Of a stretch of 64,000 bases of DNA, positions 23,384-44,723 are shown piece by piece. This DNA comes from Catenaria anguillulae PL171. Lineage: Eukaryota > Blastocladiomycota > Blastocladiomycetes > Blastocladiales > Catenariaceae. The DNA is taken from positions 496,001 through 560,000 of the forward strand of contig MCFL01000007.1 in NCBI GenBank assembly GCA_002102555.1. Reading direction: 5' to 3'. Made by a program: the position numbers and the translations under genes. How positions within the stretch are numbered: the first letter of the stretch is position 1; the number at the start of each line of letters is the position of its first letter. The notes under the pieces were generated by a model. It had not been told where the DNA came from and did no database searches. It worked only from the letters and a program-made list of their open reading frames with translations.

Positions 23384-26338
23384 ATGCCCCCGAAGCGCAA
23401 GCCCACCACAAAGCCCCCGCCCGCCGTGGCCGCCGCTGCCGCCGCTGCTGCGGCAGCCAAGAAGCCCCAGTCAGCAGCCGCCGCGACGTCCGCATCGGCC
23501 ACAGCTTCTGCTGCTCGTCCGACTTCTGCTGCTGCTGCCACCACCGCCAATGCCCTGACCACAGGCACCGCCAATGCCGCACATGCGATCAGCACCCCTG
23601 TCAACGCTCGAGCTGTCGCCTCGGGTGCCGCTGGACCTGCAGCCGCCGGTGGCCAACTCTACAAGCGGTGCCCACCGCTTGCCTCCAAGGAAGCCGGTCT
23701 GTTCAAGCAAGTCCTCAAGCTCTACGAGATGAAGCAGTACAAGAAGGGTCTCAAGACGGCCGAACAGATCCTGAAAAAATCGCCCGACCACGGCGAGTCG
23801 CGCGCTATGCACGGCTTGCTCATGTTCCAGCTCGATCAGAAGGAGGATGGGTATAGGGAGATTGAAAAGGGCGTTGAATTGGACCCTGGATCGCACATTG
23901 TGTGGCATGTGTACGGATTGGCGTACAGGTCCGACAAGAAGTACGAGAGGCCGTTAGGTGTTACTTGAAGGCTTTGACGTTGGATCAGGTGCGTTTTCTT
24001 GCTTCGGGATTGCACCGATTTCATATTCTTGCCAACTGACTTGACACTGTGTTTTCATCAGCACAACTTCCAAATCCTCCGTGACCTGGCGTCCATGCAA
24101 ATCCACTGCGCGATTATGCAGGTTACCTTGTGCGTTCTTCCATTTGTGTCTCCCTTTTCGACCCATACAGGACGCTCACCGTCAAATACCAACCATGCCA
24201 ACCAATAGGCGACCCGCGAAAAGCTTGCACGTGCAACCCGTGGCCCACACCAACGCATCCACCTGATTGGCATGGCGATCGCCAACCACCTCTTGGGCAA
24301 CCACGCAGCCGCCATCCAAGCGTGGACCTGTACGCAGACACGTACAAGCCTCACCCGCCGCCGCGCGACTGGGACTTTTCCGAAATGCTTCTGTACCGCA
24401 ACCAAATCCTGCACGAGTCTGGCGATCTCGACACGACGCTTTCGCATCTGGACGTGATTGAACCGCTCGTGTGCGATGTGCGTGCCGTGCGTGAAAAGCG
24501 CGCCCAAGTGTTGCTTGAGATGGGCCGCCAAGAACAGGCCATGATGGCATATGCCGAGTTGGTCAAGACCAACCCGGATTGCAGGACGTACGTGGATGGA
24601 TTCATCAAGGCGAGCGGCGAGCGCGCAGAGGACGTGCTTGAGGGCCTGGTGGTGGATTACCCAAAGAGCAACCTCATGCCCGTCATGTACCTGAATGCCT
24701 TGCCTGCCGACTCGGATGCGTTTGAGTCTGCGCTGCGCAATTACCTCGAAGCAAACATTGTGCGCGGCGTGCCCTCCTTGTGGGCCAACCTGCGCCAGCT
24801 CTACGATGACCAAAGTACCGACAAGCCTGCCATCCTTGTGCGCGTCGTGTCGTCGCTGCTCGAGTCCCCACGGACGCCATGGTCAACGGCCGCGAACCTT
24901 TCCGGATGTGGATCGAGTACTTCCTCGCCCAGCACTATGATCGTACGGGCGAGTACGCCAAGGCCATTGAGCACGCGCAACGCGCCGTGGCCGAGCAGCC
25001 GCCAAAGGATACCGACTCTGGCAACGGCGGCGACGCCGTCACCACGACGTCCTCGTCCTCGTCGGCCGTGACCGTTCCCGAACTCTTGCTGCTGCAAGCG
25101 CGCATTTACAAGCACGCGGGCAATGCTGCACGTGCACGTGACCTGGCCAATGCTGCGCGCGAGGCCGATCTCAAGGATCGGTACGTCAACACAAAGTGCG
25201 TCAAGTACATGCTCCGTGCCGACGACCTTGCCAGTGCGCAGGATACCATCAAGTTGTTTGCGCGGCCCGACATGGCCGACCCGCTCAAGGATCTCGAAGA
25301 GATGCAATGCCAATGGTTTGCGTTCGAGTCGGCGGCCTTGCACTCGCGGCCAACGCCTACGGCTTGTCGCTCAAGCGCCTGCACCAAATCATTGCGCACT
25401 TCCGCGAGTTTGACGACGACCAGTTTGATTTCCACACGTACTGCTTGCGCAAGATGACACTGCGTGCCTACGTCGATATGCTCCAATGGGAGGACCGGTC
25501 GCGCGCGCACGCTTACTTTGAACGTGCAGCCCAGGCGTGCGTGCGCGAGTACATTCGCTTGTACGAAGCGCCCGCGGCCGTGGTCAAGGCTCAGGTCGCA
25601 GAGGCTGAGGAGGCTGTCAAGGTAGCAAGAAGGCCGCGGCTAAGAAGAAGAAGGAAATGGCACAGGGCAAGGACCCGGACAAGGACAAGCATGGGTCGAG
25701 CATGCCCGACCCGGATCCGCTCGGGCTCGAGTATGTGGGCGAGGCCGATCCGCTTGCGCAGGCGGCCAAGATTGTCAAGATGCTCGAGGCTCATCACGCA
25801 AAGAGCGTTGCAACGCACGTGTTGGCGTTTGATGTGGCGTATCGCCAAGGCCGCTGGGTCATTGCCATGCGCGCCGTGCAAAAGATGGTGAGTGTGAGCG
25901 TGTTGGGTGCGGGCGAGCCCGAGATGCATGTGAGGGCAATGATGCTCGCGCAGCGGGTGGGCAAGGACGATGTGGACGGCGCCGTGCGCGGGATCGTCAT
26001 CAAGGGCTTGCACGAGTTGCTGGCCGCTGGCGAACCGGTGCCGAGCGAGTTGGATGTGGTGGCCATGAACGCGCATTTGTTCAGGACCATGGCGGCGCCA
26101 GCTTGTTGGGCAAGGCTGCCGTTGCTCGAGTGTATGTTGAGGTCGGACAAGCGATGAGGCCAAGTCGGTGGTTGATGGCATGCTCGCACTCGGGTCGCCG
26201 TGGTCTGGCACCACGTTCAAGCAGGCACGGCAAGTGTGGGAGTTGGTCGGCGCGGTCGGGTTTGGTGGATCCGAGGAGGCGGCAGAGTTGGCTGCGCGGC
26301 TGGAGGAGTCAGCCCGGGCATGGTTTGCGATTGAATGA
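23384..26338 (+). CDS. NAA15: NatA N-terminal acetyltransferase auxiliary subunit NAA15
   Basis: Ribosome-docking TPR scaffold of NatA, which acetylates nascent N-termini together with NAA10. From ATG 23384 there is a poly-Ala/Lys/Pro extension of about 100 residues. The conserved protein starts at LASKEAGLFKQVLKLYEMKQYKKG, read here in parts: KEAGLFKQVL, YEMKQYKKGL, HGESRAMHGL, HIVWHVYGLAYRSDKKYE. Introns 23990-24060 and 24121-24170 flank a small exon encoding HNFQILRDLASMQIHCAIMQ. Later landmarks are LLLYRNQILHESG, WIEYFLAQHYD, ARIYKHAGN, DRYVNTKCVKYMLRAD, LEEMQCQWF, DDDQFDFHTYC and the Lys-rich KKAAAKKKKEMAQ. All are in the family order. At least seven one-base frame breaks (near 23948, 24200, 24330, 24870, 25345, 25625 and 26100-26150) must be crossed. 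The poly-Ala extension is unusual. Confidence 0.9.
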
Positions 26339-26800: not shown

Positions 26801-28702
26801 ATGGCTGACAAGCACCTGTTCCGCATTCACAAAGAGCGTCCGTAGCTCATTTCAGCCCGTTCCTGTTCCTTGCCTGCACTGCATCTTGGCCTTGTGCGCC
26901 GTGACGATCAAGGAGGGTTTTGACCAACTTGTCGTCCTCCATTGTCTACAGTCCGAGACATTCAACGAAATCCGGACCCATTCTTTCACTTGCACTATGA
27001 CGAGGAAGACGTTCGCTCGCTCAAGGGTCCGCCTGATTCCCCTTCGCATCATTCCTCGTCGTGCGCACACATGTGTTCACTCCTGCGCCAGTCGCCACAG
27101 CCCTTATCGTTGGCTCGCCGGAAACGCCTTATGCCTATGGCCTCTTCACTTTTGACTTCAAGTTTCCCGAATCTTACCCGAACGAGAGTCCAAAAGTGGT
27201 CATCACGACAACCAATAACCAAAAGACTCGCTTCAATCCAAATGTCCGTTGCAATTGCCCGTGCCCAGTGGGTGAATCCGCCTTGTTTGCCACGTTCCTG
27301 TAACCATTCCCTTACGATTTTCGCAGCTGTACGCCACGGGCAAAGTATGCCTCAGTTTGCTGGGCACTTGGCGTGGCACGGCCGTTGAAAACTGGAATTC
27401 AGGTCCGCTTGGGTCGTTCTTTTCTTGCAACGCATCCCGTTCAATTGCTCAATTGCTTCCTCGCCTCGATAAGCGCATGGAATCTCTTCCGTCCTCGTCT
27501 CAATTCAATCGCTCATGAGCGCCAACCCGTACGAGAATGAGCCCGGATTCGAAGAGCAAAAACCCGAGGAAAAGGACAACGTCGAGGCCTACAAGCGCAA
27601 GATTACCCATGAAACCATCCGCATCTCTGCCTTGGATCGGTTCGCTTCTCATGTCTCGCGCGGACGGCAAGGTTCGCCATCGACTCACTTCCCTCGTCAT
27701 GCTAGGATCGATGCCTACTTCAACAATCGCAACCGGTCCGACCTCCCCTTTGAGGACGTGTCTAAATACCTCTTTATGTGCTACTACCGTCAATACCTTG
27801 TACGCTCTTGGCTATCTGCTACCAAATCTCCCACCTCACACAAATATCTCACTTGATCCTATGCCTTTGCCCAGGCCACCATCGAGCGCGAGCAGAAACT
27901 CGTCAAGGATGGCGATAAATTCGTCGAAATGCCCTTTGAAGGCCACGGCAACACCATGATGGGTACATTCCAGTACTCCGCCCTCACTGACCGACTGCAT
28001 GCGGCGTTCAAGCGGCTGGTGGACGAGACCCAAGAGTGGATCGAGGCGTCGCAGTCTCCGGCCTGGTCGGAAATGGAGTCGTTGAGTTACAGCAAGATGA
28101 TGGCAGAGTACAAGCAGTTGGTCGAGTCCAAGGAGTTTGACGGGCTGCTTGACCTTTCCTTGGCGTTCGACAAGAATCCGTTTGTTTGGAACGTGTCCTT
28201 GGTTGGGCCAACGGGGACCAATTATGAGTGCGTTGATTCTCTTCCGAAACCCGTTTTCTTTGACAAGCGTTTTCTTACTTGGTGACCGTTTCATAGGGGT
28301 GGAGTTTTTGCCGTTCGTGTCGTCTTTCACAAGGATTTCCCAACCATTCGTCCTCGCGTCACGTGCGTGCTTTCTTCCTTTCTATCTCCCTCTCTTTGCT
28401 TGATTTCTCACTCGGCAGCGGCTCATCATCCCATCTCTTGTTTTGCATGACAGATTCACTACTCCGTTCCACCATCCTTGCGTCTCCGAAGACGGGATCC
28501 CATACTATCAGCCAGAACGCATGGACGATATTTCTTCCCACTTGTCGGCCTTGCTCAAGCTCATGACTGACCTCCCGAAACCGGACCCAATCACACACAC
28601 CAACCCAAAAGCCGCGCATCATGCTTTGGAGACAAGAAAGCCAAGCGCGAGTATGGACAAGCCGTGAGGCGGTGCGCAGAGAGGTCGGCCGAGTATAGCT
28701 GA
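26801..28702 (+). CDS. UBE2Z-like ubiquitin-conjugating enzyme fused to an inactive second UBC domain (copy A)
   Basis: Nine exons: 26801-26837, 26952-27026, 27101-27243, 27327-27402, 27474-27639, 27706-27799, 27875-28227, 28297-28362 and 28454-28702. They total 1,259 nt, so one missing base near 28640 makes exactly 419 codons plus stop. Domain 1 is a class E2 fold: FRIHKELRDIQRNPDP, ALIVGSPETPYAYG, RFNPN then LYATGKVCLSLLGTW with the active-site Cys at about residue 93. ISSVLVSIQSLM and NPYENEPGF follow, as in human UBE2Z and its HETIR helix. Domain 2 (about residues 275-419) is a complete second UBC fold: WNVSLVGPTGTNYEGG, FHKDFP, FTTPFHHP, then EDGIPYY where the catalytic ICL should be. 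The Cys is lost, and NPKAA precedes the C-terminal helices. This looks like an E2 carrying its own UEV-like domain. Substrate is unknown. Confidence 0.9.
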
Positions 28703-29108: not shown

Positions 29109-32100
29109 ATGGACCATCAAGCGTTCAACGTCAACCCGATATCAATCGGCGGCGGAGAATTACTCGATACGTTGTACTATCCAGACGAGTACATTTTGAA
29201 GCCCTTGATTCCAGGCGAGCTTGACCGCGAGCGTTTGGCAACAACGTACGCATACCCTGCTTCGTGCGCTGGCGTGCGGTATGACTGATTCTACATTCAT
29301 TTGCCATGTCCAGGTTCACTCTTGGCTTTCCAGCAACCCAGCGTCAATCATTTTGCTTTGTTTCCCCGTCCGTCATCGCGTTCCCATCCGGAAATGCCGT
29401 AACCTTGCTCAACGTCGTCACCATGGAACAGCAATTGTTGCCTGGACCAAGGTGTGGCGGGATATGTGTCGTTGCTGTACGTGCATCGCCAACGCTACAC
29501 ACTCGAACCTGACATTGACAAACCTTTTTGGTCGGGAAACGGACCAGGTTCACCCAGACACGACTTTCATTGCCGTTGCCGAACGCCACCACAAGGTCCA
29601 AACATTTACATATACTCCTACCCAGACCTGCGGCTGTACCGCGTTCTCAGAGGCGGCGCCGACCTCGGCTTCTCGCACTTGACGTTTAGCCAAGCCGATG
29701 GCGGTGCCTACTTGGCATCTGCCGCTTCGGACCCAGACTACACGTTGACCGTTTGGGACTGGCGCAAGGAACGCGTTGTGCTTCGTGCAAAGGCATTTTC
29801 TCAAGACTTGTTCCATGTCGCATTCTCGCCAATCAACCCGCTGGCCATTGTCACGTCCGGCGTGGGACACATCAAGTTTTGGAAGATGGCGTCCACATTT
29901 ACTGGGCTCAAATTGCAAGGATTGTTGGGCAAGTTTGGTGCAACCGAACTGACGGATATCCCATGCTTCATTACGTTGCCGAGTGGCAAGGTATTGTCGG
30001 CGACGGATTCGGGCATCCTGCTCTTGTGGGATGGAAACTTTATTCAATGCGAAGTGTCGGGCGGTTGGGGAAAAAGTGCCACCAGGGAGCAATCGAGTAC
30101 ATTGCCGTCGAAGACGGCGATGTCATTACCGCGGGCGAGGATGGATACATTCGCACATGGGATTTAGAAGCTATCGAGGGCCCGGAGCCGACAGAAGGCA
30201 AATCACCAACAGCAACAACCGTGTTTGAGCTAGAGCCTTTGGACGAGCTGTTTGTGGGCAAAGACGTCAAGATCAAGTGCATGCGCCGGATGCCAGTTGA
30301 TACCACCACCGCAAAGGCAAACAAGGCGTCGGCCACGGCTGCCGCGGCCGGTGTGGATTACTTGGCGGCGGACGGGAATGGCGCCCTTTGGCGGGTCAAT
30401 CTCAAGTCGCGCACATCGGAACGGATCTGGTCGTTTCCCAGTGGGCCCATCCACGCCATTGATACCTGTCAGTCTGCTGTGCATCATTTGGTCATCAGCG
30501 CCGGCCAAGATGGCACCGTCCGTGTCAATGACCCATTGACGCGCAGCCACTCGCAATTGCCCGTCACTCTGTTCCGGCGACATGCATCAAGTATCTTCCC
30601 GGTCGTTAGATGCCCTCGGGTGCTCGCTCGTCGCTGGGTTCGCCGATGGCAGCATTCGATTCTTTCGCCATGCCGTACCCACACCGGGGAAATCGTCAAT
30701 TGCTATTGCACGCACACATGCCCTCCGTCCGCACGCAACGGCTGTGGTTTCGCTCGTGTTATCATCGGATGCAACCGTCTTGGCCACTGCCAATGAGCAC
30801 GGAGACGTGTTCTTTTTCCTTGTTCGCAACATTGGTGTCACGTTTGATCGGAGCACAGCCGTTACGCCCATCGGATTCTTGTCGCTAGGTACGGAGATTC
30901 GGTCCTTGACGTGGGGCCTGGACCCACAAGCCAAGTCGACCTCCAACCGGGTTCGCGGGCGCTACTTGGTGGTCGTCAAGTCGGGAGACACCCTGGTGCT
31001 TACCGTAAACCTCGACAAATCGTACGAGCGGGACCACAATTTTGTCATTCCTACCAGCGACTACGACGTGGCACCGTGGACTTTGCAAAAGTATGCCGAG
31101 TCGTTGACCACTAGTTCAATCTCAGCGCCAGCACCTGGTGCACCGAGCGATCGTCCCGCGACAGCAAGTAGTTCAAAGACAAAGCCCACGGCGGACACTG
31201 CTGACGGCCAAGGTGGATCGGATGGAATGGGCGAGCAGGGCAAGGACGCGGGTCAAGCAGCGGCATCCGGGCCTCCTCCCGTTACACATCAAGTGACCCA
31301 AGTGCTATATTTTGAGCAAGATCATTTCGTGTGCGCCATTGAAAGCAGCAATGGGACCACCGAAATCCGTTCATGCCTTTTGGGCGACTCCAAGATCAGT
31401 CGTTTACTCTTGACCCTTCACAATCACACGTCTGTGACGCATCTCGGCACATCCCCAACACTCAAGGCCCTGCTTATTGGTTGTGGCGACGGGACTGTTT
31501 ACTACCGACCAGTTAGCTTTGACGGCGACCTCAACTTGAGCAACACGGGTGGCCACGAATCTTGCTCTTGTCTGACGAGTACTTTTGGCGTTCCCACGTT
31601 CACGCGGGCAGCACGGTTGGATTCCGGGCCACGTTCGACGATGCCATTTTTGTTTCTGCCGGCGCCGACGGATCCATGTTTGTCATCAAGTCGGCCATTG
31701 ATGATTTGGTTCAGCGGGCATTGTCAACGGACGGGATGGTGCTGCCGACACTGGAGGATGCCGAAGACTTGCCCAACAAGTACACGATTCAAGAAGCCAA
31801 GATGATGTTGCGGATTGACGAGGAGAACGCGCTCGCTGAGCAGCGCAAGATGGCTCGCAAGTCAATCATTCGAGACCTACAGAGGCAATTGGATACGATC
31901 CGGTCTGAGAATGCCATGTTGCCTTCCGCGCTGCAGTTGCCTGAAGAGGCGTTGCACGTGGACCCGCAGCTCAAGGATCGTATTGGTAGGTTGAGTTGAA
32001 TGCTGGCTCAATCCGTTTTCTTCCCATCGGCGTTGACACTTGGTAATGCGTATCTCCAGCCGAGGAAACCGCAGCCAAGGTCGAGAAAGCCAAGAATCAG

Positions 32101-42724: not shown

Positions 42725-44723
42725 TCACATGTACTCAACGCTCCGATCCGCGCACCGACGAGCGTTGCGGCCAAACTCGCGCCGACCATCCTTGTCCGCA
42801 AAACACAGACGGGCGGCTTCTGGGTTCAGATGTGTCGTTGGATCAGTGCTCGGGTCGTCCGTGAAGAGGGAAAGAATGGCAGCAAGGTGGGTTTTCACGT
42901 CGTCCATGCGTTGGGCACTGGTGTCGGAAGAGTATGAGATACAAGCCGCGGTGAATCAAGGACAAAGAATGTCGAGACATACCGGTACCATGGGATGCCG
43001 TCTTGAGACACGTTCGGGTGGTAGAATGGCGTGACAAAGCTGTGAAGCATGATGAGGAATGTGGGATCATGTGAGTGCAAGGACGGATAAAGAAATCAGA
43101 CCGGAAGACATGCGGATTCGTACGTGACACGAGGCCGAAGTGCCGGGAAATCTTTGTGAAAGACGAGGCGAACACGGAACATGCCACCCCTACGAGCCAA
43201 CCGATTCCATGTTCGATATGAGGCAAGTGAGCGACCTGCAAACGCTCGCAACATCGAAACCCGATTCCAAGGACGTACTCGTAATTGGTGCTCGGCCGTC
43301 CAAACACGGTCGCGACCCACACGTACGGGTTCCCCGCCTCCTCGAGCTCCAAATCCATCTGCCCATCAAAGTCCTTGGACTGAGTGATCTGCGTGAACTG
43401 GCCCGTGAGATTGTGGAATGTGAGGCAATCGGCCCCCGACCACTCTGGCGTCTTGGACAAATCAACCCACGACTGAGTCTCGTCCGATACCCGCTTGAAA
43501 AGCTTGTGCAAGCGCTCAGTCAAATCCGGATAGTTGAACTCACCATCCATGGTGTTGCCACCGCCCTCGAAGCGCATCTTGACAAAGCGCTCGTTGACGC
43601 CAACCTTGGCGGATTCGGTCTCAATGGTTTTCTACACTCAGGACATGCGTTGCATGTGACAGTTAGTGAAACCGTTCGTTTTCCGGCGAAAAAAAAGAGA
43701 GGGAAGCGAAAATGTGACGTACAAGGTACTGGCGATAGTAGCACATGAACAGATACTTGGACACATCTTCAAACTTGCGGTCGGCGTTCAAGTGCCCGTC
43801 CAGACACTTTTCAATCCTGGAAACACGAGTGGTCATGTTTGAAGTCACTGACTGACTCTGGTCATTCAACAACAAAAAAATGCGCACCGATCAATGACTG
43901 AAATGCGAATGGTCTCGTGCGTAATCTTGCGCTTGTATGCCTCCACATTCTTCTCTTCCCCAGGCCCCGGGTTTTCGTGCCCCGGCTCGTTTGTGTACGG
44001 GTTTTCACCCATGAGTGACTGAATTGAAATGAGAACCGAGAGAATGCCATGGGCTGTGTGTATCCAGTAAAAAACGAGGAGATGAGAAGAGCATGAGCGT
44101 AAGCGTCATGACGTCTCAGGAGCCAGAAGAAGAAAAGGGCTGTCGCACCAGAGTTCCAAACCTCAGATGGATGGCGCGCTTGCCAGGTACCGATGATGGA
44201 CAGGCACACCTTTCCGTTGTTGTACAGCTGAACAAACGGACGGGAAATCCGGTCAGCGAGCGAGCGCGTGAAGGGAAAAGGACAGCGTAAGGAAACGAGG
44301 TGTGCTCATACGTTGGGATTGAATCGAGTGCGGCCCTGGTTGGTGGTGGTTATCACCACTTTAGGGGCGTCGTTTGGGTAAGTCGCGGGAAAGTTAAACT
44401 TGAAGGTAAACATGCCGTAGCCGTAAGGCGTGTCCGGCGAGCCTGTAATCATGGCTGCAAATGACCAAGGAATGGAAGTGGCCGTTGGTGGGTGATCGAG
44501 TCGATATGTCTGGGCGCAAGACGAATCGAACCTTCAATGCAGGTGACATCCTCCTCATTGTACCAAAGCTGGAAGCAGCTTTCCGGTGATTTTTGAATGT
44601 CGTGGACTGCGCAAGCGCGACGGACAAGGTCAGCAAACGGGATCCAAGGAGAGGCGAGCAATCCTTGGTAGAGCCAAGATACAAACTTTCCCGGAGGATG
44701 CGGAATGTCATTTGGTTTGACAT
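42725..44723 (-). CDS. UBE2Z-like E2 fused to an inactive second UBC domain (copy B)
   Basis: Paralogue of the gene at 26801 on the opposite strand, with the same domain order and matching exon boundaries. The start is ATG 44723 ([12 protein letters not shown]) in a short first exon. The next exons give [33 protein letters not shown] with RFNPN, then [15 protein letters not shown] with the active-site Cys (about 44205). [21 protein letters not shown] follows, then [14 protein letters not shown] and [17 protein letters not shown], almost identical to copy A. The second UBC domain reads [49 protein letters not shown], so again the catalytic Cys is absent. It ends with [19 protein letters not shown] and stop at 42725. 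Introns fall at the same codon positions and phases as in copy A. This indicates gene duplication after the fusion and intron gain. Confidence 0.87.

Follow-up and report, generated by a model that had tools for sequence, protein, structure and literature searches.

Can an inactive E2 domain act in cis, on the same chain as an active one? This question is raised by two genes of the fungus Catenaria anguillulae PL171 (Blastocladiomycota), copy A and copy B, which lie in the window (the whole 64,000-nucleotide stretch of DNA that was analyzed, part of contig C425, one of the 457 contigs of a draft assembly of 41 Mb). The original prediction held that each gene encodes a UBE2Z-like E2 with an intact GKVCLS active site, followed in the same polypeptide by a complete second UBC fold whose catalytic position carries no Cys. 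To our knowledge, the additional domains of the class IV E2s UBE2O and BIRC6 are not UBC folds, and among the papers listed in searches of the open-access PMC literature, none was seen to describe a protein with two UBC domains. Based on sequence, gene structure, predicted folds and conservation, we consider it probable that these genes encode a single-chain fungal E2 in which a UBE2Z-type domain and its helical extension are joined to a RAD6-like pseudo-E2 that serves as a non-catalytic module in cis.

Each gene encodes one chain with both domains

Both copies were modelled from the raw sequence, ahead of any annotation, and both models equal NCBI proteins, so a UBE2Z-like E2 with the GKVCLS motif is indeed encoded twice (Table 1). 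The protein of copy B is flagged as partial by NCBI. The end first proposed for copy A, position 28702, had to be given up, as the assembly's own frame stops at 28667; the 1,260 coding bases of the original prediction depend on restoring one base. All introns of both genes are GT-AG. Every one of the eight introns of A has a counterpart in B, and the first eight exons match in length between the copies except for one codon in exon 4. Exon 7, which is 353 nt long in A and in B and open throughout, also contains the stretch that codes for helices 232-256 and 268-283 of the B model. Because this exon forms one open frame over the domain junction in both copies, a single polypeptide per gene is indicated beyond chance. 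Therefore, each of A and B encodes one chain with both domains, as had been proposed.

Table 1. Positions in the window of the two genes and of their exons and domains
Feature	Position	Strand	Details
Copy A gene	26801..28667	+	9 exons, 407 aa; spliced translation identical to NCBI protein P0004
Copy A, exons 1-5	26801-26837, 26952-27026, 27101-27243, 27327-27402, 27474-27639	+	
Copy A, exons 6-9	27706-27799, 27875-28227, 28297-28362, 28454-28667	+	
Copy A, UBC1, UBE2Z-like, with active Cys in GKVCLS and loop-LB Trp	26801..27639 (exons 1-5)	+	UQ_con at 8-155; Cys and Trp invariant in alignments
Copy A, exon 7, end of extension and start of second UBC in one open frame	27875..28227	+	No stops in this frame; the other frames contain 3 and 6
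Copy A, remainder of second UBC domain, Tyr at catalytic position (DGIPYY)	28297..28667	+	As assembled, shared frame lost near C-terminus
Copy B gene	42725..44723	-	10 exons, 420 aa; spliced translation identical to NCBI protein P0001
Copy B, exons 1-5	44723-44687, 44606-44532, 44454-44312, 44227-44149, 44053-43888	-	
Copy B, exons 6-10	43816-43723, 43631-43279, 43189-43124, 43039-42983, 42917-42725	-	
Copy B, exon 7 (residue 199 on), joining UBE2Z-type extension to second UBC	43279..43631	-	No stops in this frame; the other frames contain 1 and 5
Copy B, second UBC domain, residues 262-420, Trp355 (DGIPWY)	42725..43442	-	HPN retained

The first domain resembles human UBE2Z

The predicted structure of B (pLDDT 94.9, pTM 0.92) includes a UBC core with the catalytic Cys and the loop-LB Trp, and a helical C-terminal extension packed on that core, all as in human UBE2Z/USE1, a class IV E2 whose structure (PDB 5a4p) was the best match. 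Indeed, human UBE2Z superposes on residues 5-248 of the B model over 226 of 227 residues at 1.6 Å. The ordered portion of the human protein (PMC4705383) stops at residue 326, just short of where the fungal second UBC starts. At the other end the two proteins differ: PMC4705383 gives human UBE2Z an N-terminal extension of about 100 residues, which is absent from the fungal protein. The B model begins at helix 1, and in 120 homologues the number of residues ahead of B residue 6 has a median of 5 and a maximum of 36.

Homologues were collected as full-length matches from the best 120 of 3,092 and the best 120 of 2,257, which together gave 162 sequences, A and B included; many are metagenome sequences and four are shorter than 400 aa. 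The UBC1 Cys and the loop-LB Trp are each present in 161 of these 162, the sole miss of both being P0245, which has a gap or a misaligned stretch there. Across 120 sequences, 46 of the 140 columns of the first domain are at least 95% identical. The first domain would accordingly be placed, by its sequence, as a working class IV conjugating domain of the UBE2Z type, with catalytic activity presumed.

PMC4705383 describes UBE2Z/USE1 as working with UBA6 and as also loading FAT10, which is restricted to mammals. It further describes how the N-terminal extension and loop LB of the human enzyme exclude UBA1, and how removal of either makes it loadable by UBA1, far less efficiently than UBE2D3. UBA6, the partner of the human enzyme according to the same paper, was not found in the Catenaria genome in one six-frame PF10585 profile search of one draft assembly. 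This search revealed three E1 places, namely two UBA1-type genes and one piece of a SUMO E1 (UBA2). The UBA1-type genes are 916-aa frames that differ by one residue and score 1204 bits to UBA1 as compared to 701 to UBA6. They are located on separate contigs (C90:71959-72708 and C349:10605-11354) and are perhaps two haplotypes of the assembly. Because UBA6 was not found, UBA1 is the most likely enzyme to load ubiquitin onto the first domain. The fungal proteins lack the N-terminal extension but retain loop LB, which counts against easy UBA1 loading. A UBE2Z-type enzyme in a genome where UBA6 was not found, carrying a UBC fold in cis, raises the question of what such an E2 does without UBA6 and FAT10.

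The second domain is a RAD6-like UBC fold without a catalytic Cys in Catenaria

Each of the two proteins contains two stretches that match UQ_con (PF00179), and residues 224-420 of B match it by themselves at 1.4e-15. Pfam UEV matches are below the cut-off and are located in the first domain. Structure prediction bears out the second block of B as a UBC fold, since RAD6/UBE2A and UBE2G2 superpose on residues 262-420 of the model at 1.6-2.0 Å, and the model ends in two C-terminal helices (389-395 and 399-419). The expectation of a complete second fold in each copy thus holds for B and fails for A as assembled, which misses the last helix. The predicted Tyr (A) and Trp (B) at the catalytic position were both recovered, and the Cys of canonical E2s is absent from both copies. 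In A (P0004) the second-domain HPN reads HPC.

In a search of the PDB with a second-domain profile, a RAD6-type E2 was the top match (4.1e-23), and no UEV was named among the best 60 of 269. Unlike RAD6/UBE2A-type enzymes and UBE2G2, the Catenaria second domain lacks the Cys, has a short post-catalytic loop and is joined to a UBE2Z-like domain; the loop, between G352 and V365, spans 12-14 residues in all 162 homologues. A UBC fold without a catalytic Cys is also the mark of UEV proteins (Mms2/UEV1 and Tsg101). According to PMC8232796, Tsg101 likewise has Tyr at the catalytic position and hMms2 has Asp, and the Tsg101 UEV is without the two C-terminal helices, whereas the B model has both. An origin of the second domain by tandem duplication of the first appears to be disfavoured, since the two domains of B match each other at 28% over 103 residues (2.4e-7), as compared to 4e-23 for the RAD6-type matches.

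With 22 of 160 columns at least 95% identical (120 sequences), fewer than in the first domain, the second domain is constrained, though less so than its neighbor. Among the residues kept are G352 (120 of 120), H345 (118), Y356 (114), R410 (118) and R411 (116), and the conservation of G352, H345 and R410 suggests that the domain has been retained for some purpose.

The joined form is widespread in fungi and often carries a Cys at the second site

The original prediction called for a survey of fungal proteomes, and the joined form was indeed found across many fungi. Its named carriers come from Blastocladiomycota, chytrids, Zoopagomycota, Mortierella and related fungi, Calcarisporiella, and Ascomycota, among them Neurospora crassa (P0270). 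Therefore, the joined protein represents a genuine design that has attracted little notice, and not a peculiarity of the Catenaria genome. Database labels for these proteins include 'Ubiquitin-conjugating enzyme E2 Z', 'UBC-like', 'RWD-like' and 'hypothetical', and UQ_con was found in all 74 of the homologues scanned. Among the matches listed (the best 120 of 3,092 and of 2,257), no names from Basidiomycota, Mucorales or non-fungal organisms appeared.

The second catalytic position varies widely in the 162 listed homologues: it is Cys in 101, Tyr in 29, Phe in 26, Trp in 2, Ile in 2, Ser in 1 and Ala in 1. Other early-diverging fungi among the matches listed resemble Catenaria in lacking the Cys, mostly with Tyr or Phe in its place, and the named Cys carriers belong to what we take to be Pezizomycotina. 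In every one of the 101 Cys-bearing sequences HPN is replaced by H-x-[RK], so that the HPN Asn is lost there. Arg or Lys at the third HPN place occurs in just 2 of the 61 homologues without the Cys, both from Orbilia and accounting for the Ser and the Ala at the catalytic position. When the second domain was searched by itself, the best 120 of 455 matches were all short proteins, which were taken as exon-length pieces and excluded from the 162-sequence counts; Cys was present in 120 of 120, with H-x-R in 119 and H-H-A in one.

Saitoella (Taphrinomycotina) and Lipomyces and Limtongia (Saccharomycotina) are without Cys at the second site, which places the gain inside Ascomycota. At least two Cys changes are needed on a 35-sequence tree made without that stretch, and we interpret these as acquisition of the Cys in Pezizomycotina and its loss in Orbilia. 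The description of the second domain as inactive is thus correct for Catenaria, as judged by sequence, and may not extend to Pezizomycotina. With Cys in 101 of the 162 homologues, a purely non-catalytic role need not apply in all fungi.

Possible roles of the second domain

In the explanation that we prefer, the first domain would carry ubiquitin on its Cys, presumably after charging by UBA1. Behind it, the UBE2Z-type helical extension would lead into a RAD6-like UBC fold whose catalytic center has been lost in Catenaria and in the other early-diverging fungi among the matches listed. The chain would fix this second domain in place, in an arrangement that is expected to persist in solution, where its most likely role would be to bind a partner, whether substrate, acceptor ubiquitin or E3, and present it to the charged first domain.

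The best of the alternatives is a single-chain analogue of Ubc13-Mms2, in which the second domain would dock as Mms2 does and orient the acceptor ubiquitin toward one lysine linkage. The complete UBC fold of the B model, the missing Cys in Catenaria and the predicted fixed arrangement of the domains (pTM 0.92) are all consistent with this idea. Mms2 is a separate protein, unlike the fungal cis domain, and both the RAD6-type leaning of the second-domain profile, which named no UEV in the best 60 of 269, and the Cys at that site in 101 of 162 homologues argue against it. The analogy depends chiefly on the missing Cys, and we regard this alternative as unlikely. Slightly less likely again is a purely structural second domain that lends stability to the protein without binding any partner, as might be suggested by the loss of the catalytic residue in Catenaria, the short loop that follows it in every homologue and the lower conservation relative to the first domain. 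Nevertheless, the surroundings of the former active site (G352, H345 and Y356) are conserved, as are R410 and R411, a pattern that could equally be structural.

A third alternative, an E2 with two cysteines whose second domain was reactivated in Pezizomycotina, seems improbable to us. The canonical-position Cys and its invariable company of H-x-[RK] would fit such an enzyme, as would the reading of the tree as one gain with a loss in Orbilia; the same sequences, however, have lost the HPN Asn and still have a short loop after the Cys, and the Orbilia pair has Ser and Ala. Finally, a gene-model artefact in which two adjacent genes were read as one can practically be dismissed, as nothing was found in its favor, the joined form aligns across 31 sequences, and two separate genes were rejected on the evidence of exon 7, which is open over the domain junction in both copies.

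Beyond the cis-module explanation itself, a more ambitious picture can be drawn, which we hold to be doubtful. It would consist of a widespread fungal E2/pseudo-E2 polypeptide that assembles ubiquitin chains unaided by a partner UEV and is charged by UBA1 rather than UBA6, with the Cys regained in Pezizomycotina, where the second site might perhaps be active or redox-sensitive. A Cys arising at a vestigial catalytic site offers a dateable case for the question of whether pseudo-enzymes can be re-activated, and the N. crassa homologue makes the question of what the chain does approachable in a standard laboratory organism.

Copies A and B are paralogues

Copies A and B align at 57% identity and are paralogues, not alleles. 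A comparison of the two copies as far as residue 395 gives a dN of about 0.36 and a dS of about 1.9, the latter saturated in UBC1, values that point to constraint, loosely measured. Two trees of 29 and 35 hand-picked sequences cluster A and B with Blastocladiella britannica (support 92/93 and 97/93). Because the branching order inside this trio is weak (88/70 and 90/51), the A/B duplication may date back to the divergence from B. britannica. In the 29-sequence tree, the branch of A (0.85) is about three times that of B (0.26) and about as long as that of B. britannica (0.9). In the assembled sequence, copy A departs from the shared frame close to its C-terminus and so lacks the last helix of the second domain, unlike B and its relatives, in which the C-terminal end is intact; the gene may be decaying or have taken on a new role, or the assembly may be in error.

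Duplication of the whole neighborhood was rejected, since pieces of A and B are the only window frames of 50 aa or more that match each other. Rfam and tRNA searches of the window found none, an NCBIfam search with two proteins gave no match, and a viral contig search gave 7 pattern matches, of which 0 were confirmed. Upstream of A, a frame at 25609-26157 (+) matches a NatA acetyltransferase auxiliary subunit (PF12569, 1.2e-13), and downstream of it a frame at 29403-30167 (+) resembles an EML-type beta-propeller (PF23409, 1.4e-24, just below the cut-off).
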